Positions 49,352 to 64,000 of a stretch of DNA of 64,000 nt are shown piece after piece. The DNA is from Gammaproteobacteria bacterium. GTDB taxonomy: Bacteria > Pseudomonadota > Gammaproteobacteria > Steroidobacterales > GCA-2729495. The position numbers and the translations under genes were made by a program. The stretch spans positions 1 through 64,000 of the forward strand of contig JAJRUG010000112.1 of assembly GCA_024277915.1 (NCBI GenBank), given 5' to 3'. Each line of letters begins with the position of its first letter. Position 1 is the first letter of the stretch. The notes beneath the pieces are model-generated. The model was not told the origin of the DNA, did not search any database, and saw nothing but the letters and a program-made list of their open reading frames with translations.

Positions 49352-50005
49352 CTATGATCGTACTGTGGCTGCCTGTACCCGCCGGCAAGATACCGCGGCC
49401 AGCGACAAAAGACCCAACATCATCAATATCAGAGTACCCGGCTCCGGCAGCGGCTTGGCTGTACCGTAAAGATCCAGTCCCCAACTTTGCTGTACGCAAT
49501 CACCCTGGTAGCAATTCCCGTTGCCGCCAGTATAGGCGGCCGTATTCTGCCCCCAGAGGAGCAGGTAATTACTGGTGATCTGATTGACCATGCTGTTGAT
49601 TTGTTCAAAGTAGAACCGCCCTTTGCCGGTGACATCCAGATACCACAGCGGATCCATGCTATTTGAGTAGTAGTCACCGCCCAGACTGCCACCGGTAACA
49701 TCATAGCCGTTGAGCATGCCGGTGATACCGGAAAGGATAGTTCCATCCCAATCACCAAATAACATTCCGGTTAATGCTGTCTTGGTGCCGCCCGAACCAG
49801 GACACATATAAAGCGTGTCGTTCGAACCGTTATTGTCCATATCCAGATCGCTGGAACCTGTGCATCCACCTGCGCTATGCAACCAGCTGGCAGAGTAACC
49901 GCTGGTCGCATAGGGTCCAATGTCATACCCCACCGGCACGGCCCAAAGCGACACTGGCGCAGCTATCAACAGAGCTGCCATGCTGGCAATTAATCTGATT
50001 TTCAT
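49352..50005 (-). CDS. PEP-CTERM sorting-domain protein
   Basis: A 217-residue secreted protein from the ATG at 50005 (MKIRLIASMAALLIAAPVSLWA signal peptide). The C-terminus is a classical sorting domain PLPEPGTLILMMLGLLSLAAVSCRR: PEP motif, membrane helix and basic tail. The body has Cys pairs and many Gly/Ser/Asn, with no recognised domain. A longer frame to 50086 exists but would add an atypical leader. It and the protein at 18821 indicate an exosortase system. Confidence 0.9.
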   Translation of the reverse strand: MKIRLIASMAALLIAAPVSLWAVPVGYDIGPYATSGYSASWLHSAGGCTGSSDLDMDNNGSNDTLYMCPGSGGTKTALTGMLFGDWDGTILSGITGMLNGYDVTGGSLGGDYYSNSMDPLWYLDVTGKGRFYFEQINSMVNQITSNYLLLWGQNTAAYTGGNGNCYQGDCVQQSWGLDLYGTAKPLPEPGTLILMMLGLLSLAAVSCRRVQAATVRS

Positions 50006-50329
50006 AGTGGTCTCCAATCCATGGATTTGTTGTTTTTCCGATCTCCAGATAAACAAAGCAACTAGCGTGCCAACTCTGCTAGTCATTGTTTTTATTTGCT
50101 TTTATCTGTTTATTGCTAGAACCATCAGGCCGACTGTAAATATTTTCGGCAACTTGTTTTTTGTTCCAGCTAGCCATAATCCCGGGCAGGGAAAATAAAT
50201 TGTGAACTGCGTCACAAGAATTCCTTAAATTGAAGCCTTATGCCAAAAACCGGCGCTGCGTGTTCCATTTGAGGCATTTTCGAGGTGTAAAACTGTCCGG
50301 CACCTCATAAGGCAAACAGCCTGGACAGG

Positions 50330-52520: not shown

Positions 52521-53333
52521 ATGTATACTTGGCTGATGAGAGCGATTCCCACTCATTCAACTACCCGGTTCCGGAGAGCTGTCGAAGCACTGTTGTTAGC
52601 CAGCTTTATCAGCATCAGCGGATGCAGTCTTCCTATTTACAGCGAATCCCAACTGGAAGAACAGTCCCGGCTGCAATTTGAACAACTTCGCTCAGATACG
52701 CCCGTATCGAACAATACCTCAGTCAATCAGTATGTGGATTGCGTCGCCGAGGCGATCATCGCTACTCTGAGCCCCGCATACGCAAATATGAACTGGGACA
52801 TCGTGGTTTTCGATTCCGAACAGGTTAATGCCTTTGCCATGCCTGGTGGATATATCGGGGTATTCACCGGAATACTTGATGTCGCCGAAAACCAGCATCA
52901 ACTCGCTGCAATCATCGGGCACGAAGTCGCTCATGTCACAGAGCGCCACTCTCTGGAGCGCATTAACCAGGCGGCGACCACACAAATCGGCATCATGGGT
53001 GCGACAGTAGCGCTGGGTGGCGGCCAGGAAACGGCTGATCTTTTACAAATGGGCGCCCAACTGGGGTTGACCCTGCCCTACGGAAGAAAACAGGAAAGTG
53101 ATGCGGACATAGTCGGTGTCATGTATATGGCTGACGCAGGATTCGATCCACGGCAAACTCCGAAGCTGTGGGCCAACATGAACAAAACTTCCGAATCAAG
53201 GCCACCTGAGTTTATGTCAACCCATCCGTCTCCTGATTCCCGAATACAGGAATTAACTGATCTGTTGACGACGGCCTTGCCTCGCTACAAGGCAGCAAGA
53301 GCGGCGGGAAAACGGCCGGGCTGCAGACTTTAG
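52521..53333 (+). CDS. M48-family metalloprotease, lipoprotein
   Basis: A 270-residue zinc metalloprotease of the LoiP/YggG type. The zinc motif is HEVAHVTERH, with the third ligand Glu in KQESDADIVGVMYMADAG. A lipobox SISGC indicates anchoring in the outer or inner membrane. FAMPGGYIGVFTGIL and MSTHPSPDSRIQEL are typical. It would degrade or mature envelope proteins. It is the upstream neighbour of the ten-gene operon, 130 bp before its first gene, and might be part of it or a housekeeping gene. Confidence 0.92.
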   Translation: MYTWLMRAIPTHSTTRFRRAVEALLLASFISISGCSLPIYSESQLEEQSRLQFEQLRSDTPVSNNTSVNQYVDCVAEAIIATLSPAYANMNWDIVVFDSEQVNAFAMPGGYIGVFTGILDVAENQHQLAAIIGHEVAHVTERHSLERINQAATTQIGIMGATVALGGGQETADLLQMGAQLGLTLPYGRKQESDADIVGVMYMADAGFDPRQTPKLWANMNKTSESRPPEFMSTHPSPDSRIQELTDLLTTALPRYKAARAAGKRPGCRL

Positions 53334-53462: not shown

Positions 53463-54671
53463 ATGCAATTCCCGACATTCGTTTTTGTACTGTCTGCTGT
53501 CCTCGCCCTGTCAGGACTTGAATCCGTATCGGCAGACGAGCTGTTACCTGCTGCCATGGATTCACCTGGCGAGCATGAACTGCTGGTTACAAACTACCAG
53601 GCCATCATTGAAAAGCTGGAAGTTGAGCAGGGTGCCTATGGCTCGGGTTTATCCGAACCGTTACTCGATATGGGGAAAGCATACTATCAGGCCGGCTTGC
53701 GCCTGGAAGCGTTGCAACTGTTCAAACGCTCAATGCACATTAGTCGTGTCAATGCCGGGCTTTACAGCCTCGCCCAGGAACCAATGTTAAGAGGAATCAT
53801 TGGTATCTATAAAGACCAGAGTAACTGGGCAGATGTAACGGCAGCCTATGATCGGATTTACGCTATATATACCAACACTTATGGCGGAAACGGTCTCGAA
53901 ATTCTCCCGGTTCTGAAGGAAATTCGGGAATGGCACATTACTGCATATTTGAGACAGCCAGAGGATGGCTTTGGTCATCTGTTTCGAGCCGATACTATTG
54001 CGCGCTCTTCTATTGATCTGGTGTCGAGAAACTTTGGCGATAATGATATGAGACTTGTGGCGTTGCTTGAATCCCTGATCATCACACAATTCTATCTGGC
54101 GCAGCAAAAAGACGATATCGGGAACCCCCGATCTGGTGTATCTTTCGGCCATTCTCCCAATACCGAAATCAATAGCCGAAAAAAATTACTGGCAGATCGA
54201 GCTTTTTCGAACGGAAAAAATGCATACCGCAAAATCATGCAAATTATGGAAGCTGACCCGAGCATGACCATCCTTGATAATGCAGAAGTTTACGCTGAAT
54301 TAGGTGACTGGCATGCATTGTTCGACAAACGGGGAGCTGCGAAGACGCTCTACAAAGAAGCGCTCGCCATACTTGAGAATGATCCGGATGCAAATACTCT
54401 CAAGGAGACATTATTCGGCACTCCCAAGTTGCTTCCGGCATTCTCAGGAATGAGCACCGCGAGTTCGGAAGATGATCCTTCTGTTAAAGTCAGGCTCAGA
54501 GTAACCAAAATGGGATTTCCGAGAGATATAGAATTTATGGAAGAAAACTCAGAGAACAAAAATTACGGCATGCCCAGCATAAGGCGTTCCATCCGGAGTT
54601 TTCGCTTTCGTCCGAGATTTATCGATGGCGAAGCCGTATCTGCGGAAACGACCCTTACAATCAAAAGGTAG
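53463..54671 (+). CDS. Periplasmic TPR-like protein with TonB-C-like tail
   Basis: A 402-residue exported protein. The signal peptide is MQFPTFVFVLSAVLALSGLESVSA. Tetratricopeptide-like helices follow (LLDMGKAYYQAGLRLEALQLFKRSM, ...). The C-terminal ~70 residues (VKVRLRVTKMGFPRDIEF...IRRSIRSFRFRPRFIDGEAV) resemble the TonB C-terminal domain that contacts outer membrane proteins. I start at ATG 53463; a GTG at 53436 is in frame but lacks a ribosome binding site. It is the first gene of the operon: its stop TAG overlaps the GTG of the next gene. No TonB box helix or energising subunit is in the protein itself. Confidence 0.8.
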   Translation: MQFPTFVFVLSAVLALSGLESVSADELLPAAMDSPGEHELLVTNYQAIIEKLEVEQGAYGSGLSEPLLDMGKAYYQAGLRLEALQLFKRSMHISRVNAGLYSLAQEPMLRGIIGIYKDQSNWADVTAAYDRIYAIYTNTYGGNGLEILPVLKEIREWHITAYLRQPEDGFGHLFRADTIARSSIDLVSRNFGDNDMRLVALLESLIITQFYLAQQKDDIGNPRSGVSFGHSPNTEINSRKKLLADRAFSNGKNAYRKIMQIMEADPSMTILDNAEVYAELGDWHALFDKRGAAKTLYKEALAILENDPDANTLKETLFGTPKLLPAFSGMSTASSEDDPSVKVRLRVTKMGFPRDIEFMEENSENKNYGMPSIRRSIRSFRFRPRFIDGEAVSAETTLTIKR

Positions 54672-55420
54672 TGGCTCAGTTAATGCACAAGCACCTCTTC
54701 TTCATTTTATTTATAGCGGCATTCCTCCTCGGAGGTTGCAACAGTCCGCCCACCAGATCTTCTGACAGTTCATCCTCATCTGCTTCAGGTGCTCCTCCCT
54801 CAGGTTCAGGTACTCCTCCCTCCGGCTCAGGTGACTCACCCTCTTCGGGCGGCAAGCCTTCTCAAGGATCAGGAGACATGAGTGATCCGTCCCCTCGCGG
54901 TTCTTTCCCCGAAAGCCCGGCCAATGGGGACAACCAGATTTCTAGTGAGCCTGGCGCCTGGAATACCGGTGGCACAATCAGTTCCGAAGAACAGATCGCC
55001 GTGCTGGATGGCGCACTTGAGTCGTCCATGGAAGTTTTTGACGGCATGATTCTGGAGGAAAGAAATACGATTCGGGGCATTGAAGATGCCAACTCCGAGG
55101 AGGATCTACCAGGAGAAGGCGGGACTGGTGAGCCATTGTTTGAGGAAGGGGATCTTGCGGGTGGTGCTGGCCAGGAAGTGACGGTAGCTGCCGCACCCGG
55201 TAGTAATTCTGAGGGCGCCAGTCGCTCGACCCCGACCGGCCGAAGTGGTGCAGGCCATCAGTCAGGCAGCGATATCCCTGCAGATCTGGCTGACGGCAGC
55301 GACGACGATATCGTGGCACGCCAGATACGCGAGGCCGCTATTCAGGAATCCGATCCCGTACTCAAGGAAAAGCTTTGGGAGGAATACAGAAAGTATAAGG
55401 GCGAGGGAAGCAAAAATTGA
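54671..55420 (+). CDS. Acidic Ser/Gly/Pro-rich lipoprotein
   Basis: A 249-residue lipoprotein: the signal ends in LLGGC. After Cys comes a low-complexity stretch of Ser, Gly and Pro with tandem PPSGSG units, likely an extended tether, then an acidic region (EEDLPGEGGTGEPLFEEGDLAGG) and a C-terminal helix with IVARQIREAAIQESDPVLKEKLWEEYRKYKG. The GTG start overlaps the stop of the previous gene (TAGTG); an ATG at 54683 is an alternative. No known domain is visible. In the operon it sits between the TPR protein and another lipoprotein. Confidence 0.75.
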   Translation: MAQLMHKHLFFILFIAAFLLGGCNSPPTRSSDSSSSSASGAPPSGSGTPPSGSGDSPSSGGKPSQGSGDMSDPSPRGSFPESPANGDNQISSEPGAWNTGGTISSEEQIAVLDGALESSMEVFDGMILEERNTIRGIEDANSEEDLPGEGGTGEPLFEEGDLAGGAGQEVTVAAAPGSNSEGASRSTPTGRSGAGHQSGSDIPADLADGSDDDIVARQIREAAIQESDPVLKEKLWEEYRKYKGEGSKN

Positions 55421-56583
55421 TATTTCCGAGAATCATTCTCCCTTTATTTGCGATCCTGCTGCTGGTCGGCTGCGGCCAGACGGTGATTAGAACAACAGCC
55501 CATACACCACTGGATGTCCAGGCGGATGGTATTCCAGAGCCACAGTTACTCGATCTGGCAGTGCTCACATTCGATCCGGGGCTGGATAATATCGATGAGA
55601 ATGACGAAACGACTTTGCCGGAAGTAAGAAATGCCGAGGCCTTGTTTATGGCCAGCCGGTTGGCCGATACGCTTCAAAGAAGCGGTTCATGGGGAGCCGT
55701 TCGCGTTGTTCCGGGTAAACAGGTCATCATGGATGTTTATGTCGAAGGCGGAATTTTGTACTCGGATGGTGAAACGCTGGAGCTGTCTATCGAGGTAACC
55801 GACACCAGCGACAATGTCTGGCACAAAAAAAAATACAAAGAGGTTATCGGCAAGTATGCCTATGAGAAGCACGAGCAACTGGACAGAGATCCTTTTCAGG
55901 GTATTTTCAATCGCATTGCCAACGATCTGGCCGCGTACAAAAACAAATTATCTACCGCACGAATTGAGGAGTTAAGAGCTGTCTCCGGATTACGATTTGC
56001 AAGGGATTTTGCACCCGATGCCTATTCTTCGTATTTAACAGAGGGCAGCAACGGTAATATCAGAATTTTCCGGTTACCTGCCGACAACGACCCGACACTG
56101 GCTCGCATTAACAGCATTCGGGAGCGCGACTACCTGTATGTTGACACGCTGCAGGAATACTATAACGCGTTTTCTCGGCAGATGGATGTGCCTTACCAGA
56201 CCTGGCGAGCATTGAGCTACGATGAAAGATTGTCGTTACGAGAGTTGCAAAGGCAATATCGGCTTCGAGTACTGGCAGGGATTGCTACTGTGATCGGCGG
56301 TGTCATTGCCGCTGGCTCCGATAGCGGGGCGACTCAGCTAGGTGGCATTGTTGCGGCCAGCGCCGGCGGCATGCTTGTAAAAAGCGGGCTGTCCAAAAAA
56401 GCCGAGGCGCAGATCCATATCGAGGGACTGCTGGAACTAGGCGAGTCTCTCGAGATGGAACTCGAGCCCCGGATTATCGAGCTGGAAGACCGGACCATAA
56501 CGTTGACCGGAAATGTTGAGGCGCAGTACCAGCAATGGAAGCAGCTACTGAAAGAAATTTACCGTGCTGAACGTGAACAATAG
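55417..56583 (+). CDS. Envelope lipoprotein of unknown family
   Basis: A 388-residue lipoprotein from a TTG start overlapping the previous stop (TTGA). The lipobox is LLVGC. N-terminal half is beta-rich (LLDLAVLTFDPGLDNID, VIMDVYVEGGILYSDGETLELSIEVTD); a Gly/Ala membrane-like segment (VLAGIATVIGGVIAAGSDSGATQLGGIVAASAGGMLV, about 290-325) lies near the C-terminal third. The end has EPRIIELEDRTITLTGNVEAQYQQWKQLL. It may be anchored at both ends or form a pore-like element. I do not recognise a family. It precedes the membrane TPR/PEGA gene by 41 bases. Confidence 0.75.
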   Translation: MIFPRIILPLFAILLLVGCGQTVIRTTAHTPLDVQADGIPEPQLLDLAVLTFDPGLDNIDENDETTLPEVRNAEALFMASRLADTLQRSGSWGAVRVVPGKQVIMDVYVEGGILYSDGETLELSIEVTDTSDNVWHKKKYKEVIGKYAYEKHEQLDRDPFQGIFNRIANDLAAYKNKLSTARIEELRAVSGLRFARDFAPDAYSSYLTEGSNGNIRIFRLPADNDPTLARINSIRERDYLYVDTLQEYYNAFSRQMDVPYQTWRALSYDERLSLRELQRQYRLRVLAGIATVIGGVIAAGSDSGATQLGGIVAASAGGMLVKSGLSKKAEAQIHIEGLLELGESLEMELEPRIIELEDRTITLTGNVEAQYQQWKQLLKEIYRAEREQ

Positions 56584-56624
56584 TTCACGACCCTGGCGGC
56601 AATCTCTGTAGATCCGGGACGCTC

Positions 56625-58148
56625 GTGCCTGAAAAAAACACCTCTCGAAACAACGGGCCGGAAAAACCGGGCAACCGGAAAATATCTCCTATAGAGGTGC
56701 CGCTTAGCCATACCACTGATGCAAAACAGCAAACAGCTCCATGGTACTGGAATCGCCTGACATTTTTTGGCCTGTTAACCAGCATGCTACTTGCCATGTT
56801 TGCTATTTTCGTATTGCCGGCAATGGTGAAAACACCGCAAATCCTGCCGGAAACCCTGAAAACGATTCAAGCTGCTCCGGCAAAGCCTCTGGAATCCCCC
56901 TGGCAAGAAGCTCAGCTCGCCAAGGCACGGCGTGAGGCACAGGATATTCTCAGCCAAATACTTGCAAGGCAGAAAATGCTGGAACAGCGCCAGGTTACTG
57001 AATGGGGGAAAGAACGCTTTGATCTGGCAATGGCTACAGCCGCTGAAGGTGACAGCTATTACCGTCAGCGATACTTTGCCGAGTCAATCGGCGCCTATCA
57101 GTCCGCACTGACTGTTCTGGAGGCGCTGGAAGCGGAAATGCCTGCCCTGATCGAGACTGCATTCAACAATGGCATGGAACTGTTTGATCAGGGCGATGCA
57201 GAAGGATCCGGCAAATACTTCGAACAGGTACTCGTTATGGATCCCGGACACACCGGCGCTATTCGGGGACTGCAGCGGAGCAGTACACTGAACCAGGTGC
57301 TGGAGCTGGTATCCAGAGGCAAGGATTCACTTGACCAGGGGAAACCTGATGAAGCCAGTCAGTTCTTTTTGCAGGCTCTTGAGCTTGACAATCAATCCTC
57401 CCGGGCGCATGCCGGCAAGTCAACTGCAGACAATCTGATTCTTGATCGCAATTTTAATCAAGCTATGAGTGCCGGGTATAACTCTCTTGAAGCAGGCGAT
57501 CTCTCTCAGGCGGAAGCCGCTTTCGCACAGGCAGCGAGGCTCCGTCCGGAGGATGCTCCGGTTCGCAAGGCACTGGCTCAGACGCGAAATCAACTTGCCC
57601 GGGAGCATCTCAGTACACTGATGATATCGGCCAGGAAAGCGGAAGCCGGGGAAGAATGGAGCGATGCCACCGCAGTTTATCAGCAACTGCTTGATGCTGA
57701 TTCATCACTCATCGATGCTCGGGTCGGAAAACTGAGAGCCACAGCCCGAGCCAGACTCAACGATGAGATAGAGAACATTCTTTCAAACCCTCTGCGCCTT
57801 GCTACCGACAGGGTTTATCAGGCAGGAAGCATCATTCTTGCAGATGCGCGTGGTATCCGGGACCCTGGTCCAAAATTGCAAAAGCAGATTGAAGATTTGC
57901 AGGCAACCTTAACTGCAGCAGTTACCCCGGTTCCCATACAACTGGTTTCCGACAACTACACAGAGGTAGCACTATTGAAAGTGGGTGAACTTGGCCGCTT
58001 TAGCACCAAGAACCTGACACTGAAACCCGGCAACTATGTGGCAACCGGTATTCGCCCCGGGTACCGGGATGTAAGGCTGGAATTTCAGGTGACCGGAGAG
58101 TCCCCGGCAGAGCCGATAAGTATTATCTGTACTGACCCGGTTTCATGA
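56625..58148 (+). CDS. Membrane TPR protein with PEGA-like C-terminus
   Basis: A 507-residue protein from GTG 56625. A cytoplasmic N-terminal 43 residues precede one membrane helix (RLTFFGLLTSMLLAMFAIFVLPAMV, about 44-68), then a periplasmic coiled coil and TPR repeats (YYRQRYFAESIGAYQSAL, GNELFDQGDAEGSGKYFEQVLVMDPGH and others). The last ~80 residues (LLKVGELGRFSTKNLTLKPGNYVATGIRPGYRDVRLEFQV) look like a PEGA domain. The stop overlaps the next gene (ATGA). It probably builds a scaffold across the inner membrane. Confidence 0.8.
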   Translation: MPEKNTSRNNGPEKPGNRKISPIEVPLSHTTDAKQQTAPWYWNRLTFFGLLTSMLLAMFAIFVLPAMVKTPQILPETLKTIQAAPAKPLESPWQEAQLAKARREAQDILSQILARQKMLEQRQVTEWGKERFDLAMATAAEGDSYYRQRYFAESIGAYQSALTVLEALEAEMPALIETAFNNGMELFDQGDAEGSGKYFEQVLVMDPGHTGAIRGLQRSSTLNQVLELVSRGKDSLDQGKPDEASQFFLQALELDNQSSRAHAGKSTADNLILDRNFNQAMSAGYNSLEAGDLSQAEAAFAQAARLRPEDAPVRKALAQTRNQLAREHLSTLMISARKAEAGEEWSDATAVYQQLLDADSSLIDARVGKLRATARARLNDEIENILSNPLRLATDRVYQAGSIILADARGIRDPGPKLQKQIEDLQATLTAAVTPVPIQLVSDNYTEVALLKVGELGRFSTKNLTLKPGNYVATGIRPGYRDVRLEFQVTGESPAEPISIICTDPVS

Positions 58149-60226
58149 TTGAGCGATCAACTCACAGCAGTAAAAAGAAGCTGATTTCGGCTGAAGACTA
58201 TCAGCCCCTGGATACATCAGCATCGGCCAGGAGATCTTTTTCCGGATCACTATTGTCAAGGCCGATCACAATATTGATTATCTTTGCCGGTTTTATATCG
58301 GTAGTCATTCTGTGGTTCCTGCTAACCGCCAAAGTACTGATCCTGGAGGTAACCCCCGCCGGCGCATCAGTATCCGTTACCGGTGGCATCGTACTGCAGC
58401 TGTCAGGAAATTATCTCTTGCGGCCCGGTGACTATCGCATCATGGCAAGTGCCAGAGGCTATGTTGACTATCAGGCCGATATCAAGGTTACTGATGCCGG
58501 GAATCACCAGCATGAAATCTCGCTGCAGAAAAAACCAGGGCATCTGTCCATTACCTCGGTACCTTCGGAAGCCGATGTTTTTGTTAACGGGCATGCCAGC
58601 GGCCAAACACCATTGACCGTTTCTGACCTGTCTCCAGGACACCATACCGTACGAATAACAGCAACCGGCTATTTCCCCGAAACTACCGAAGTAGATATCG
58701 AAGGACTCGACACAACTCAGGCAATCAATCTGACCCTCAAACCTGCATGGGGCCAGGTAAATCTGGCCTCTCAGCCTTCGGGTGCCATCGTCACGGTTGG
58801 CGATGAAGACCGTGGCACGACTCCTGTCAGCACGCAATTGCTATCCGGAGGAGAGCAGGTGTCGATCAGCCTGGCCGGGTACAAGCCCTGGAGAAAACGC
58901 TTGTCTGTAGCACCTGATGCTACATTGACCCATGAACTGGTGATACTTCAGCCCCTTGACGGATTGCTGGCGATCACCAGTGTTCCCAAAGGCGCTGGAA
59001 TTACTGTCGATGGAAACTTTCGTGGAACAGGCCCGGCAGACTTGCAGTTGATTCCCGATCAGGATCATCAGATTTCTTTATTTCTTGACGGTTATCACAC
59101 TGAAAAGCGCATCGTACAATTGCGTTCCGGAGAAGAACGTAAATTGGTAGTCAATTTATCCGCACGCACCGGGAGTATGCGAATTTTAACATCGCCCAAG
59201 GATGCAGAAGTATGGATAGACGGGGAGCTGCGCGGCACATCGGATGTCACTGTCAGCTTGCCTGCCAAAGCGCATCGAATGGAGGTACGAAAAGAAGGCC
59301 ATACCAGTAAAGTACAAACAATTACGCCACAGCCCGATTTCGAGCAGGTACTTCGGGTCAGCCTGATGACGCACCAGCAAACACAACGGGCAAATCTGCC
59401 CGGACTGATATCCAGTGCCGGCGGGCAGAAACTGAAGTTATTCAGACCAGAGCAGACTTTCACCATGGGTGCTTCCCGTCGGGAAGCCGGTCGTCGATCC
59501 AATGAAGTAATCAGGAATGTGCGGTTGGAGAGAGCCTTTTACCTGGCATTAACCGAGGTCACCAACGCACAGTTCAAGGAATTCTCGCGACAGCATAGCT
59601 CCAGCCATGCCGCCGGCCGAACCCTGGATACACCGTCGCAACCGGTCGTTTCGGTGAGCTGGCAACAGGCGGCTTTATACTGCAATTGGCTCAGCGTAAA
59701 AGAAGGCCTGCCTCCCGCCTACCGGATACTGGACAACAATGTGACACAATTTAACCCGGATGCCACAGGCTACCGGATGCCAACAGAGGCAGAATGGTCT
59801 TGGGCTGCCCGGTATGCAGACGGACAGATGGCGAAATATACCTGGGGCAGCCAATTTCCGCCGACTGGCGCATCGGGCAATTATGCAGACAGCAAGGCGG
59901 CCTCAATCGTCGGTCGCATCATCAAGACCTATAATGACGGATTCTCCGTTTCAGCACCTGTGGGCAGTTTTCCACCCAATGGAAAGGGGCTGTTTGATCT
60001 CGGGGGTAATGTATCAGAATGGGTAAGCGACTATTATGGTATTGCGACAAGCCTGTCAGCCGAAGTGATTGTCGATCCGCCCGGCCCGGACAAGGGCAAA
60101 TACAGAGTGGTGCGCGGAGCGAGTTGGCGGCACGGCAGTATTGTTGAAATGCGTTTGTCCTATCGTGACTATGCCGATCAGGGAAGAGATGATGTCGGGT
60201 TTCGAATTGCTCGCTATGCTGAATAA
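58145..60226 (+). CDS. Membrane protein with PEGA repeats and Cys-less formylglycine-enzyme fold
   Basis: A 693-residue protein. Residues ~39-62 are a membrane helix (RPITILIIFAGFISVVILWFLLTAK). Several PEGA-type repeats follow, each with a signature such as GHLSITSVPSEADVFVNGHASGQTPL, GQVNLASQPSGAIVTVGDEDRGTTP and GLLAITSVPKGAGITVDGNFRGTGP. The C-terminal ~250 residues are a formylglycine-generating enzyme/sulfatase-modifying fold (TFTMGASRREAG, ALTEVTNAQFKEFSR, GYRMPTEAEWSWAARYADG, FDLGGNVSEWVSDYY, VRGASWRHGS), but the two copper-binding cysteines near the end are absent, so it should not make formylglycine. It may bind sulfated or glycan ligands. Its stop overlaps the next gene. Confidence 0.87.
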   Translation: MIERSTHSSKKKLISAEDYQPLDTSASARRSFSGSLLSRPITILIIFAGFISVVILWFLLTAKVLILEVTPAGASVSVTGGIVLQLSGNYLLRPGDYRIMASARGYVDYQADIKVTDAGNHQHEISLQKKPGHLSITSVPSEADVFVNGHASGQTPLTVSDLSPGHHTVRITATGYFPETTEVDIEGLDTTQAINLTLKPAWGQVNLASQPSGAIVTVGDEDRGTTPVSTQLLSGGEQVSISLAGYKPWRKRLSVAPDATLTHELVILQPLDGLLAITSVPKGAGITVDGNFRGTGPADLQLIPDQDHQISLFLDGYHTEKRIVQLRSGEERKLVVNLSARTGSMRILTSPKDAEVWIDGELRGTSDVTVSLPAKAHRMEVRKEGHTSKVQTITPQPDFEQVLRVSLMTHQQTQRANLPGLISSAGGQKLKLFRPEQTFTMGASRREAGRRSNEVIRNVRLERAFYLALTEVTNAQFKEFSRQHSSSHAAGRTLDTPSQPVVSVSWQQAALYCNWLSVKEGLPPAYRILDNNVTQFNPDATGYRMPTEAEWSWAARYADGQMAKYTWGSQFPPTGASGNYADSKAASIVGRIIKTYNDGFSVSAPVGSFPPNGKGLFDLGGNVSEWVSDYYGIATSLSAEVIVDPPGPDKGKYRVVRGASWRHGSIVEMRLSYRDYADQGRDDVGFRIARYAE

Positions 60227-60425
60227 ACGGTTGAAACAAAGCGCAATCGTTTTTTTTGCTGCAGCGCTCCTGTTTTCAGCGACGGCCGATGAACCGGCGG
60301 TCAAGGAGCCTGAAGCAGCCAGACAAGCTGAAACCGATAGCAACACAGCAGCGGAAGATGCAGAATTCAACCCGACAGAAGAGATTATCGAGGATCTTTC
60401 AGTGCCATTTCCGATAGACATCTAG
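60216..60425 (+). CDS. Small secreted acidic protein
   Basis: A 69-residue protein starting at ATG 60216, inside the end of the previous gene. A signal peptide (MLNKRLKQSAIVFFAAALLFSATA) is followed by a short acidic, Ala/Glu-rich region (EPAVKEPEAARQAETDSNTAAEDAEFNPTEEIIEDLSVP). A longer in-frame reading to 60069 is a shadow of the previous gene. It is 15 bases before the channel gene, so it is probably a small accessory subunit of the complex. Confidence 0.65.
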   Translation: MLNKRLKQSAIVFFAAALLFSATADEPAVKEPEAARQAETDSNTAAEDAEFNPTEEIIEDLSVPFPIDI

Positions 60426-60439
60426 GGAATTAATTCAAT

Positions 60440-61252
60440 ATGAAACAGCGTGCCAGTACTTCAGAGTTTATTTATCAGGTATTTGCTTTACTGATTTCCC
60501 TGATCGTTGTGCATGCTATTTACGTCACACTGATAAGACCGAATGCAAATGCAATCCTTGAACAACGGCTGGCGATGGAAGCTGCCGGAGAACCCTATAT
60601 CACTGAACGATCATTCTATATTGTTGTTAAGGACTATGAACAGGAAGCATGCTTTGTATTGATGCTATGGTCGATGGCGATTATGGGCTTCAAGGCACGC
60701 CGTATAGTGAATGAACGCAAGTTGTTCGATAGCGGTCTGTTAAGCGTCGCTGAGGGCACACGAATCCTGCCGGAAGATGCACGAAAAATGTCACGCCCGA
60801 TTCAGGCGCTTCAGGACGAACAACTCTCTTACCTTCTTCCCCGTGTGTTAAACGCAGCGTTGCTCAGATTTTCTGTGACTCAGAGTATTCAGGACGTATC
60901 CAGTGCCATCAGTGAGGTTCTTGAAACGGAGTCTGATCGGCTCGACTCAGAGCTGTCCATGGTGAGATATATTGCATGGGCTATCCCTTCTATCGGGTTT
61001 ATAGGCACAGTACGCGGTATCGGCGAAGCACTCAGCCAGGCTCATAAGGCGTTGCAGGGTGATATTGCCAGCGTGACCGCCAGTCTCGGCGTAGCGTTCA
61101 ATTCAACTTTCATCGCCCTGGTGATCAGCATTGTAGTGATGTTCCTGATGCATCAACTGCAACTCCAGCAAGAACGACTGGTGCTGGACACTCACCGCTA
61201 CAGCGATGAACGGTTAGTTCGCCACCTCAGGCCCGACCAGGCAAGTAAATGA
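60440..61252 (+). CDS. MotA/TolQ/ExbB-type proton channel protein
   Basis: A 270-residue inner-membrane protein. Four helices are predicted: TM1 at ~9-31 (EFIYQVFALLISLIVVHAIYV), TM2 at ~68-86, TM3 at ~174-195 (MVRYIAWAIPSIGFIGTVRGIG) and TM4 at ~214-240 (ASLGVAFNSTFIALVISIVVMFLM). The TM3-TM4 arrangement with IGFIGTVRGI and SLGVAFNSTFIALV matches the ExbB/TolQ/MotA core that forms the proton channel. The cytoplasmic loop between TM2 and TM3 is long. Its stop overlaps the ATG of the next gene (ATGA). It has no known partner ExbD/MotB gene, but two vWA genes with a helix like theirs follow. Confidence 0.85.
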   Translation: MKQRASTSEFIYQVFALLISLIVVHAIYVTLIRPNANAILEQRLAMEAAGEPYITERSFYIVVKDYEQEACFVLMLWSMAIMGFKARRIVNERKLFDSGLLSVAEGTRILPEDARKMSRPIQALQDEQLSYLLPRVLNAALLRFSVTQSIQDVSSAISEVLETESDRLDSELSMVRYIAWAIPSIGFIGTVRGIGEALSQAHKALQGDIASVTASLGVAFNSTFIALVISIVVMFLMHQLQLQQERLVLDTHRYSDERLVRHLRPDQASK

Positions 61253-62562
61253 CAGCTGCGATTATTGACATCAATGATATTGAACTAGGCTGCTTTCACG
61301 GGGATCAACAGGTAGCAACCCCGGGCTTTGCCCTGCTCACCAGCGACGGCATCCTGACGGGTGAACCGGCCTTGAGAAGAACCTGGCTTGAGCCACAACT
61401 GGCATTCAGTCGATTCTGGCGTAACCTGGATTTATCTCCCCTGCCCGTATCAAGCCGCTTTGCCCGCCATCATGCTGATCTTGCCTACGCCCACCTGTTG
61501 CAGGTGCACAGGGAAGCAGGCCAGCCAGCCAGCGTCGTGTTTGTCGTACCCGGCAGTTTCAGTGATGAGCAGCTTGGTATTCTACTGGGGCTCGGAAATG
61601 CCCTGCCGTTTGATGTATCAGGAATGGTCGACTCGGCCATCGCTTCCTCCGCTGAAATCGGGCCGGGGTCTTATATTCATATAGACGTACAGCTTCATCA
61701 AATCGTGCTGACGGAAGTATCAGTCAATAAACATGTAGAACGGGGATCCGTCGTAATCCTGAAAGAAGCAGGCTTGCAATCCTGCGTGGATGCGTGGGTC
61801 CGGCACATCGCCAAACAGTATATTGACCAGTATCGTTACGATCCTCAGCATACCGCCGACTGTGAACAGCAACTCCACGACCGGCTGCCTGCATGGATAG
61901 AGACGCTGTACAGGCACACTGAAATTCCAATCGAGCTGGACACAGCCCAGGGAACGCTGCGACTCACCCTGAACCCGGATGACCTTCTGCACACCATACA
62001 AAATCAGCGACAGGTCCTGTTAACGGGTATTCACAAAATGGCAGGAGCAGGTGCCCGGATAATATGCAGCCACCGTGTACGGCAGGTATATGGCCCCGAA
62101 TTCCCGATGATCGGTGCTGGTATTGCCGAGGTAATCACAGTTGAAGAAGACACTCTGGTTTCCAATTGCCTGAGCAACCTGGACATCATCAGCGATACAG
62201 ATGTCGAAGCAAATGGTGATATCAATTTTGTCACTCAACTTCCGGCTAACAACCGGACTATCGCATCACCCGGACAGCCCGAGGCTCGCTCCGGCGCCGG
62301 AATCGTGACGCATGTACTGATCGAAGGCCGCGCCTGTGTGATCGATGACCGTCTCGTCATTACGATTGGGTCTGATGGGCTGATATGTGGAGCAAAGCCT
62401 GCATCGGCAGATAAACAACTCGCTGTGATAAAACTCGATAACAGAGTTGCACTTGAAGCCGGCTCGGAAAACATTGATACCAGCGCCCGGCTCGACGATC
62501 TTCAACCGGGAGATGAGATCAGCGTCGGCCCCTTCAAGATGCAATTGATCGAGGTGTGCTGA
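61249..62562 (+). CDS. Actin/Hsp70-like protein with possible FHA-like tail
   Basis: A 437-residue soluble protein. The first ~350 residues show actin/Hsp70-like features: an N-terminal strand AAIIDINDIELGCFHG in the phosphate-1 position, a later GPGSYIHIDVQLHQIVLTEV in the phosphate-2 position, and the order of alternating domains. Key loop residues are not canonical, so ATPase activity is uncertain. The C-terminal ~80 residues (LIEGRACVIDDRLVITIG...AVIKLDNRVALEAGSE...GDEISVGPFKMQLIEVC) have an FHA-like beta pattern. It starts within the end of the channel gene (ATGA overlap). A cytoplasmic assembly or regulatory factor for the machine is likely. Confidence 0.6.
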   Translation: MTAAIIDINDIELGCFHGDQQVATPGFALLTSDGILTGEPALRRTWLEPQLAFSRFWRNLDLSPLPVSSRFARHHADLAYAHLLQVHREAGQPASVVFVVPGSFSDEQLGILLGLGNALPFDVSGMVDSAIASSAEIGPGSYIHIDVQLHQIVLTEVSVNKHVERGSVVILKEAGLQSCVDAWVRHIAKQYIDQYRYDPQHTADCEQQLHDRLPAWIETLYRHTEIPIELDTAQGTLRLTLNPDDLLHTIQNQRQVLLTGIHKMAGAGARIICSHRVRQVYGPEFPMIGAGIAEVITVEEDTLVSNCLSNLDIISDTDVEANGDINFVTQLPANNRTIASPGQPEARSGAGIVTHVLIEGRACVIDDRLVITIGSDGLICGAKPASADKQLAVIKLDNRVALEAGSENIDTSARLDDLQPGDEISVGPFKMQLIEVC

Positions 62563-63630
62563 ATGGCCAGGCGAAGGCGGCAGATGACGACCTTCAGTTT
62601 GTCCTTCCTGGATATAATGGCCTGCGGATTTGGTGCTGTGACCCTGCTTTTTCTGATCCTCAAGCACGATCCACAAACCATTGAGGCTTCAGACCCGGAT
62701 CTGGTAGCGGAAATAGAACTGCTGCAGGAGGACATTCGCCGGACTGAAGAGTATATGGTTGAGCTGCAAAACAGCCTCAGGAAATCCGAGCAGGATATTA
62801 CCCAGGCACAGGGCCTGTCCAGCAGGGTAATTCAGACGATTGATGAAAAGCAGCAGGAGTTGAGCCTCCAGGGTGATCCTGAAGCGGAAATTATTCTGCT
62901 GCGCCAATCGGTCAAGGAGCTGGCCGAACAGACCTCACTGCTGGAGCAAAGTGGCCAGGGCAGAGATTTACGACCCTTTATCGGGGATGGCCAGCGACAA
63001 TACCTGACCGGCCTCAAGCTGGGGGGGCGGCGTGTAATGATCTTGCTTGACGTGTCGGCAAGCATGCTTTCCGACTCGATTGTAAACATCCTTCGACGCC
63101 GTAACATGGACGATGCATCACAGCGACGTGCAGAAAAATGGCGCCGGGCGAAACGCACTGCGGAATGGCTGGTAGCCCAGCTCCCCAGTCAGAGTCTATT
63201 CCAGATTTACGGCTTTTCAACAACCGCCACACCCATGCTGGAAGGAACGGCAGGTCAGTGGCTGGATACCACTGATCGTGATCTGGTCGAGAACCTGTTT
63301 GTTTCGATCAATCAGGTAGTCCCGAAAAACGGTACCAATTTGCTACAGGCTTTCCTGACATTGGATGAATTCGAAGAGCCGCCGGACAACCTGTTCCTGA
63401 TTACCGACGGCTTTCCGACCCAGGGAAAAAGAAAGGCCGGAAAATCGACTGTTACCGGAAAGGAGCGGCTGGATCTGTTCAATGAGGCGGTTAATTCGTT
63501 ACCATCGGGTCTACCGGTCAATGTGATTCTTTTCCCGATGCAGGGTGACCCCCTGGCTGCGGCAGGTTTCTGGCAATTGGCCGTGCGATCGCACGGATCT
63601 TTTCTTAGCCCGTCGAGGGACTGGCCATGA
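62563..63630 (+). CDS. vWA-domain protein with MotB/ExbD-like N-terminal helix (1)
   Basis: A 355-residue protein. After a basic start (MARRRRQ) comes one membrane helix SFLDIMACGFGAVTLLFLIL (about 14-33) with a single Asp17 at its cytoplasmic end, then a coiled coil (about 45-130) and a von Willebrand factor A domain with the MIDAS motif DVSAS at 163-167, a Thr in KNGTNLLQA and the Asp in LITDGFPT. Topology should be N-in, vWA in the periplasm. It starts directly after the actin-like gene (TGA then ATG). The helix resembles the MotB DFMTAMMAFFLVMW segment, where Asp carries protons. Confidence 0.83.
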   Translation: MARRRRQMTTFSLSFLDIMACGFGAVTLLFLILKHDPQTIEASDPDLVAEIELLQEDIRRTEEYMVELQNSLRKSEQDITQAQGLSSRVIQTIDEKQQELSLQGDPEAEIILLRQSVKELAEQTSLLEQSGQGRDLRPFIGDGQRQYLTGLKLGGRRVMILLDVSASMLSDSIVNILRRRNMDDASQRRAEKWRRAKRTAEWLVAQLPSQSLFQIYGFSTTATPMLEGTAGQWLDTTDRDLVENLFVSINQVVPKNGTNLLQAFLTLDEFEEPPDNLFLITDGFPTQGKRKAGKSTVTGKERLDLFNEAVNSLPSGLPVNVILFPMQGDPLAAAGFWQLAVRSHGSFLSPSRDWP

Positions 63631-64000
63631 AACTGCGAAAGCGTTCCATGGCCGATACTAATATTTCTTTCCTTGATGTCATTAGCTGTGGCTTCGGTGC
63701 AATTGTTCTTTTGTTACTGATAGCCAGGGCAGTCGACCCCTCGGCATTTGAGAAAGGTGAGGATCCCGGAGGCAGTGTGGTAACACTTCAGCAACAGTTG
63801 TTCAGTCTTAGAAGTGATACCACTGTACTCACCCGCAATCTGACCTCAAGGGAACAACAGCTTTCGAAACTGCGAGACAATATCGCCAGGCTGCAAGAAC
63901 AGCTTGCCAGTATCAAGCGACAGATAGCTGCGGTGAATGAGATTGACACAACCGAGAAACAGGAGCTGGCCCTGGCATTGCAAGTGCTGACAGAGGAAAT
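63627..64000 (+). CDS. vWA-type protein with MotB/ExbD-like N-terminal helix (2), 3' truncated
   Basis: The gene runs off the window; 124 residues are visible. It is a paralogue of the preceding gene in its first part: MKLRKRSMADTNISFLDVISCGFGAIVLLLLIARAVDP, with Asp17 in the same place in the helix. A coiled coil follows (TLQQQLFSLRSDTTVLTRNLTSREQQLSKLRDNIARLQEQLASIKRQ). The vWA domain is expected beyond the edge but not seen. Its ATG overlaps the stop of gene 1 (ATGA). If it is a true paralogue, the pair could be two unequal subunits of one stator. Confidence 0.72.
   Translation, partial: MKLRKRSMADTNISFLDVISCGFGAIVLLLLIARAVDPSAFEKGEDPGGSVVTLQQQLFSLRSDTTVLTRNLTSREQQLSKLRDNIARLQEQLASIKRQIAAVNEIDTTEKQELALALQVLTEE

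Follow-up and report, generated by a model that had tools for sequence, protein, structure and literature searches.

A scattered operon with a TolQ-like protein and a conserved pair of vWA proteins: genomic assessment of a predicted proton-driven envelope machine

Bacteria use ring motors driven by protons to turn flagella, to glide, to import nutrients and to maintain the outer membrane, and in the TolR/ExbD and MotB proteins the helix of the B subunit carries an aspartate. This report concerns an operon at positions 53463-64000 of a 64,000-nucleotide stretch of gammaproteobacterial DNA (the window, which corresponds to C89:1-64000 in an assembly of 178 contigs, 3.1 Mb in size and 92.5 % complete), in which the gene for a ring-forming A subunit of the MotA/TolQ/ExbB family, here called TolQ-like, stands together with genes for two von Willebrand factor type A (vWA) proteins, our candidates for the B subunit. 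A motor of this family whose B subunit is of another kind, and which occurs here and there in two bacterial classes, would test which features of a B subunit are essential.

Gene content, order and distribution

The ten genes at the locus lie on the plus strand with short gaps or start/stop overlaps between them (Table 1), and domain searches agree with the list of parts that a first-pass annotation of the window had drawn up; apart from a few corrections given below, that list stood, but the formylglycine-generating enzyme (FGE) domain, the nearly invariant end of the small protein and the genes farther downstream had been overlooked. The next 15 kb reveal that the conserved block continues three genes beyond the window end. 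Once vWA2 is completed, at contig base 64613, there follow two genes for lipoprotein-like products (lipoC and lipoD) and one M48 protease gene, all within the conserved block. The complete order is thus TPR/TonB-C, lipoA, lipoB, TPR, PEGA-FGE, small protein, TolQ-like, Hsp70-like, vWA1, vWA2, lipoC, lipoD and M48, in which TPR stands for tetratricopeptide repeat.

Table 1. Genes of the operon within the window
Product	Position	Strand	Group	Features
TPR/TonB-C	53463..54671	+	accessory, absent from reduced loci	TPR protein with TonB C-terminal-type domain
Lipoprotein A (lipoA)	54671..55420	+	core	lipobox Cys23, low-complexity middle, C-terminal motif
Lipoprotein B (lipoB)	55417..56583	+	core	lipobox Cys19, alpha/beta domain, long helical hairpin with Gly-rich tip
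TPR	56625..58148	+	core	single transmembrane helix, TPRs; C-terminus PEGA-like by eye only
PEGA-FGE	58145..60226	+	core	single transmembrane helix, five PEGA domains, FGE/SUMF1-like domain
Small exported protein	60189..60425	+	core	hydrophobic N-terminus, low-complexity linker, tail P-x-D-I-COOH
TolQ-like	60440..61252	+	core	MotA/TolQ/ExbB-family A subunit; Pfam PF01618, pore Thr alignment
Hsp70-like	61249..62562	+	accessory	Hsp70 nucleotide-binding-domain fold, C-terminal beta domain
vWA1	62563..63630	+	core, proposed B subunit	helix Asp17, coiled-coil-like stretch of ~90 residues, vWA domain with metal-ion-dependent adhesion site (MIDAS) DxSxS
vWA2	63627..64000, on to contig base 64613	+	core, proposed second B subunit	architecture as vWA1; Asp17, MIDAS

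Homologous loci were collected by a vWA1 search, in which 110 of 168 candidate stretches were confirmed; the best 80 of the 110, mainly from Porticoccaceae, SAR92, Lysobacterales and other Gammaproteobacteria, were kept and all 80 read. With a second set of 29 further loci, there are 109 loci overall without the window's own. Locus counts exclude L001, L083-L096 and L106-L117, each of them either a different region or a repeated locus from a genome already covered, and some of the 80 loci and of the further genomes are possibly of the same species. Alignments were made from subsets picked for diversity, namely 45 of 75 Hsp70-like, 40 of 62 lipoprotein B, 20 of 74 TolQ-like, 20 of 80 vWA1, 20 of 76 vWA2 and 22 of 57 TPR/TonB-C sequences, all totals including the window and the last alignment omitting 3 of 24 chosen loci.

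With the small gene set aside, the 12-gene order is exact in 45 of the best 80 loci; a further seven have a split or doubled gene in an otherwise unchanged order, and 26 hold a contiguous part cut by the end of the contig or locus. A comparison of gene order across genomes had been proposed in the first-pass annotation, and, once split genes and truncation by contig ends are taken into account, the order is kept in 78 of the 80. The two deviants are L038, which is without the Hsp70-like gene, and L079, which has an upstream lipoC-like match on the opposite strand. Among the further 29 loci, the full order is exact in six, a cut part is present in three and the arrangement differs in 20, these last being reduced sets, short contig pieces, and strand or position variants. 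The TPR/TonB-C gene is on the opposite strand in L118, L127, L131 and L137, and the TolQ-like gene is located behind vWA2, rather than ahead of the Hsp70-like gene, in L120 and L133. Such an arrangement is far beyond chance.

The core of the system consists of the two lipoproteins, the TPR and PEGA-FGE proteins, the small protein, the TolQ-like protein, vWA1 and vWA2. No core gene is missing inside the block in 107 of the 109 loci (the window's own excluded), and all seven large core genes are seen in 84, the remainder being cut short, except for L132 and L133. The vWA1 gene is present in all 110 loci and vWA2 in 109, its absence from L040 being due to a contig end that cuts the locus. The distribution of the operon is scattered and not universal, with vWA1 profile matches in 32 of 369 genomes across the class (at 1e-6) and, phylum-wide, vWA2 profile matches (at 1e-10) in 16 of 398 genomes; 13 of these 16 come from a single family (f40), which is part of another class. 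Untruncated f40 loci (L099-L103) hold only lipoA, lipoB, TPR, PEGA-FGE, small protein, TolQ-like, vWA1 and vWA2, and the same reduced set occurs in four loci of the window's own class (L125, L126, L129 and L130). In all nine reduced loci, the TolQ-like and vWA1 genes lie too close together for an Hsp70-like gene to fit, and the M48 protease and extra lipoproteins are absent from them. As for carriage on plasmids, no vWA2 match was found among 72,556 plasmid records.

The TolQ-like protein and its candidate B subunits

The TolQ-like protein matches PF01618 (MotA_ExbB) with 60.3 bits against a cut-off of 22.9, in keeping with the family assigned to it in the first-pass annotation; four helices, as described there, are counted by eye, but a simple hydrophobicity window flags two. 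Its Thr190 and Thr223 align with T145 and T178 of TolQ in a PDB profile match that is itself weak (E 0.08), and both are kept in at least 97 % of 74 TolQ-like sequences. T145 and T178 line the pore of TolQ.

That the two neighbouring products are vWA-type proteins, as first annotated, is borne out by a vWA1 score above the Pfam VWA_3 cut-off (31.5 versus 27) and by the DxSxS motif of vWA2, which is under the VWA_2 cut-off (19.9 versus 27). The helix aspartate is retained in all 110 vWA1 and all 109 vWA2 proteins (106 of the latter by pattern, and L082, L008 and L128 by reading), and Asp17 and the MIDAS are kept in at least 97 % of the aligned sequences of both. Even where C-G-x-G beside the aspartate is replaced by S-A-x-A, as in vWA2 of L099-L102, the aspartate is retained. 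Within the added loci, DxSxS is present in 28 of 29 vWA1 (the exception being L132) and in 29 of 29 vWA2 proteins. Behind the helix of both proteins lies the stretch of ~90 residues, similar in length in the two, whose PDB matches are mostly coiled coils, none of the matches being stronger than E 0.01. Neither protein has a MotB_plug or OmpA match. The TPR and PEGA-FGE membrane proteins were considered as other candidates for the B subunit and set aside, their hydrophobic stretches being read as without an acidic residue.

The ExbD survey was made on 27 operon-bearing genomes, a set that does not include G698, G132, G263 and other profile-matched genomes. An ExbD gene (PF02472) is present somewhere in all 27 and inside the operon in none. 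The window's operon has no ExbD or MotB gene, as first remarked; the lack of ExbD extends to these homologous operons, a result in favour of the first-pass proposal. The shortest distance between an ExbD gene and the operon, 4.4-4.7 kb as counted from the M48 end, is seen in G532, G732 and G640. In L121, L134 and L135 (family f224), the operon end adjoins a gene between operon and ExbD that we take, by eye, to be yebC, and ExbD lies 4.4-4.7 kb from the M48 gene; perhaps these nearby ExbD genes belong to a tol-pal cluster. The window's genome has five other MotA_ExbB genes, three of which stand beside an ExbD gene and two beside a MotB_plug gene, the latter neighbours carrying both MotB_plug and OmpA domains, while TolB on contig C57 adjoins a separate TolQ/ExbD pair. 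Elsewhere in the same genome (L085, C176:20000-27500), a TolQ-like gene is followed by two different ExbD-type genes, both of which exceed the Pfam cut-off, and then by a further protein; these genes make up another, separate operon for a ring motor, one that has two subunits of B type.

Taken together, the conserved aspartates and MIDAS and the lack of ExbD in the operon make the vWA pair a well-supported candidate for the B subunit, as the first-pass annotation had proposed. Metal binding by the vWA domains, proton flow and a 5:2 complex would be expected of such a pair.

The small tail protein, the proposed frame and the accessory proteins

Between the PEGA-FGE and TolQ-like genes there is a gap of 210-631 bases in all 71 of the best 80 loci that hold both, and in each of the 71 it contains a small open reading frame with a hydrophobic N-terminus; the word 'exported' here reflects a hydrophobicity filter rather than a signal-peptide predictor. 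The usual end of the protein is F-x-P-S-E-E-I-S-E-D-x-x-V-P-(F/L)-P-x-D-I-stop, and in the other class the protein has ~60 residues and an end of (A/S)-(T/S)-F-P-V-D-I or close to it. A P-x-D-I end was found in 96 of 98 testable loci, within 760 bases in 94 and farther on in L104 and L123, as against 4 of 3541 control windows from the same loci; the exceptions are L069, which ends in H-A-D-I, and L132, in which none was found. Within the assembly, F-P-x-D-I-stop has a single occurrence, which is this gene, and the reversed-pattern control has none. A whole-length BLAST with the window's small protein finds it in just one of the 80 loci, because the remainder of the sequence is of low complexity. 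The free tail is acidic and hardly varies at its end, as a docking tail would, and we think that it may be one, a 'clutch' that engages another core protein. Its binding site could be the metal site of a vWA domain or a carboxylate clamp formed by TPRs.

The other core proteins apart from the motor would belong to a frame. Lipoprotein A has a conserved C-terminal motif, RQiR.AA..E.DP.L.ekLW.EYR. The model of lipoprotein B (mean predicted local distance difference test score, pLDDT, 82.8) has weak fold likeness to LptE 8h1s (E 9e-4) and to TolB-N 4r40 (E 4e-3); a likeness to pore-forming toxins, with a root-mean-square deviation (rmsd) of 16-21, was read as shared long helices only. Both window proteins have a lipobox, in agreement with their annotation as lipoproteins, but the simple pattern occurs in only 41 of 59 lipoA and 29 of 61 lipoB homologues, making lipidation of the homologues less sure. 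Similarly, the two single-helix membrane proteins each have the one transmembrane helix first described, but Pfam finds PEGA repeats in PEGA-FGE alone. The FGE-sulfatase domain of that protein is matched at 1.6e-42, and no cysteine occurs in its last segment, aligned to window residues 656-693, in any of 66 sequences. As the active-site cysteine pair of FGE lies in this C-terminal segment, an active formylglycine-generating enzyme was rejected, and the domain is probably structural.

Concerning the accessory proteins, TPR/TonB-C starts at 53463 (ATG) or 53436 (GTG), has a single N-terminal hydrophobic stretch, read as a signal peptide, and has a C-terminal domain whose family profile matches TonB2 2k9k (E 2.5e-6). 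The Hsp70-like protein is cytoplasmic, and its annotation as actin/Hsp70-like is upheld by an AlphaFold2 model (pLDDT 91) in which residues 1-319 match Hsp70 nucleotide-binding domains (versus DnaK 2v7y, VIA Z 28.6 and rmsd 3.3 over 318 residues). Pfam and NCBIfam gave no match in the protein, and nothing convincing came from searching PDB profiles with its alignment or with that of lipoprotein B. At the places of the Gly-rich phosphate loops, assigned by eye, E/D-L-N-D and D-x-Q-L-H-Q predominate across 75 Hsp70-like sequences, and with its loops so replaced the protein is expected to serve as a scaffold and not as an ATPase. The beta domain at its C-terminus may be FHA-like, one of 45 members matching the Pfam FHA model (3.8e-7).

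Other genes were noted nearby. A second gene for an M48 lipoprotein-type protease, at 52521-53333, is immediately upstream of the operon and probably outside the block, as it was never listed as best match in homologous loci. On the minus strand at 49352-50086 is a gene for a secreted protein whose C-terminal stretch is similar to a PEP-CTERM sorting signal, and just downstream of the operon in another locus (L002:7999-10350, minus strand) is one for a cytochrome-c-type protein with C-terminal TPRs.

A predicted machine, its rivals and its relatives

These parts can be assembled into a model. Five copies of the TolQ-like protein would form a ring in the inner membrane, and the N-terminal helices of one vWA1 and one vWA2 would sit in its pore, each Asp17 carrying protons, such that proton flow turns or tilts the pair. 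The matching coiled coils of ~90 residues would act as a shaft, about 13 nm long if fully helical, lifting two metal-site vWA heads to the peptidoglycan/outer-membrane zone; there, the heads would act on a fixed frame, to which the two membrane-anchored proteins (TPR and PEGA-FGE), both core lipoproteins and the P-x-D-I end of the small protein would belong. The Hsp70-fold and TonB-C proteins, the extra lipoproteins and the M48 protease would be lineage-specific additions. We consider such a machine, spanning the envelope and driven by a proton motor of the 5:2 type whose shaft is the vWA1/vWA2 pair, to be probable, albeit by no means certain. What the sequences and the fold model show is the content, order and conservation of the genes, the lack of ExbD in the operon, the retained Asp, Thr and MIDAS residues and the Hsp70 fold; the stoichiometry, the heterodimer, the proton flow, the movement, the binder of the tail and the biological task are inferred. 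Judging from the signal sequences and from a layout like that of GldKLMN, the task may be the transmission of force to the outer envelope.

Contrary to the first-pass annotation, which had named no system of this composition, a motor core of a TolQ-like protein and a vWA pair has already been put forward in a published prediction (PMC12204202; Mol Biol Evol 2025, msaf138), the one paper found that was judged relevant to the vWA pair. According to the main text of that paper, a vWA family is tightly linked to tolQ homologues without tolR/exbD, its pairs being predominantly heterologous and having a transpore helix with a proton-binding aspartate, and AF3 (AlphaFold 3) models, with an Idiomarina example, put the vWA helices inside the pentamer, in agreement with the first-pass proposal. 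The first vWA family in the same text is described as binding the side of the ring, with no deletion phenotypes reported for it there. The present operon resembles the TPH-vWA systems of PMC12204202 in its TolQ-like gene beside a vWA pair, its N-terminal helix aspartate and the lack of TolR/ExbD in the operon; the Idiomarina TPH-vWA is likened by description, with no named Idiomarina record among the loci studied here. For the second vWA family, section 8 and the legend of PMC12204202 leave PEGA-FGE, TPR, lipoprotein, small-tail and Hsp70-fold genes unnamed, and 'pega', 'sumf1', 'hsp70' and 'small protein' have no occurrences in the main text. Likewise, 'vwa' is absent from the accessible text of PMC12505986, on MotAB relatives. 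The wider machine was not found in open-licence texts, a scope that leaves out bioRxiv preprints altogether and the majority of subscription journals. Within this scope, no description was found of the wider parts list, the P-x-D-I small protein, the Hsp70 fold without its usual ATP loops or the FGE domain without cysteines.

Several observations weigh against the vWA-driven machine. Neither vWA protein has a Pfam ExbD or MotB match up to E 0.1, and the B-subunit status consequently rests on helix, aspartate and gene context. Core genes are missing inside the block in L133 (lipoB) and L132 (lipoB and TolQ-like). Covariation between core proteins, over 82 loci with an effective number of sequences (Neff) of about 61, was uninformative; the top scores of the tail were with TolQ-like, lipoprotein B and vWA1, but proteins that evolve slowly had high scores in general. 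Finally, vWA1 and vWA2, as paralogues, could instead form separate homodimers, giving two motors per cell. For the latter speaks the presence of two vWA genes with one A gene, and the known B subunits TolR and MotB are homodimeric. However, vWA2 is missing from just the one contig-cut locus, the two coiled-coil stretches are of similar length, and the pairs reported in the main text of PMC12204202 are mostly heterologous, so that we find two homodimeric motors unlikely.

Another possibility is that the vWA proteins are side-binding transducers like TolA or TonB, with TolR or ExbD from elsewhere as the true B subunit. Although the survey found ExbD elsewhere in every genome, in three of them close to the M48 end, and the first vWA family described in PMC12204202 is of that kind, side binding leaves the constancy of the helix aspartate in both vWA proteins to be accounted for, and every ExbD gene of the window's genome already adjoins another A subunit; we hold this reading to be very improbable. 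The constancy of the tail, in a small protein whose remainder diverges, together with the M48 protease linked in the full operon, would also suit an exporter or display machine having the small protein as substrate and P-x-D-I as export or display signal. Yet no other F-P-x-D-I C-terminus exists in the assembly, which argues against a general sorting signal, and the reduced loci do without the protease and extra lipoproteins; an exporter is thus an improbable solution. About equally improbable is a ring that serves as a gated proton leak or sensor, with vWA heads that sense the state of the envelope and plug the pore. A mechanical output is reported for no vWA member met in the literature, and the main text of PMC12204202 reports no deletion phenotypes for the first vWA family; the long coiled-coil stretches, on the other hand, fit a shaft. 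Relatives of known function, namely MotAB, ExbBD, TolQR and GldLM, are force-generating, unlike a leak.

As a doubtful but more specific elaboration of the vWA-driven machine, the system may form a distinct class in which a heterodimeric vWA1/vWA2 shaft turns in the ring and the P-x-D-I tail is alternately held and let go, either by the metal-site vWA heads or by the TPR protein, as a clutch on the PEGA-FGE frame. Whatever its mechanics, the conserved core of seven proteins and the small tail protein tells which parts to reconstitute or delete, and the tail offers a sharp handle on what the motor pulls.

Among known systems, TolQ-TolR-TolA and ExbB-ExbD-TonB share with the operon the A-subunit family, an aspartate in the helix of the (here proposed) B subunit and, in one accessory protein, a TonB C-terminal-type domain; in contrast to them, the operon is without ExbD/TolR and has vWA heads on coiled-coil stretches instead, and the window's genome also holds a separate TolQ/ExbD/TolB cluster. 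MotA-MotB has the same A-subunit family and likewise an aspartate in the B helix, but the vWA proteins are without MotB_plug/OmpA, unlike the two MotB genes of the genome. For Zorya, the ZorA model NF033917 gives 17.4 bits versus a cut-off of 500 and PADLOC ZorA2 gives 20.4 bits, with no ZorB match for the vWA proteins; a defence-system reading was rejected, the PADLOC matches being weak and those of the vWA proteins lying in the coiled-coil stretches. GldL-GldM-GldK, from type IX secretion and gliding, in which GldLM has the layout of a ring motor with a long periplasmic shaft, is likened to the operon by that layout and by an FGE-fold protein, the FGE region matching a GldK model at E 3.7e-33. 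The match to TIGR03525 (115.4 bits) is nevertheless below its curated cut-off of 350 and, in contrast to GldK, the FGE domain is here fused to PEGA domains on a membrane anchor.

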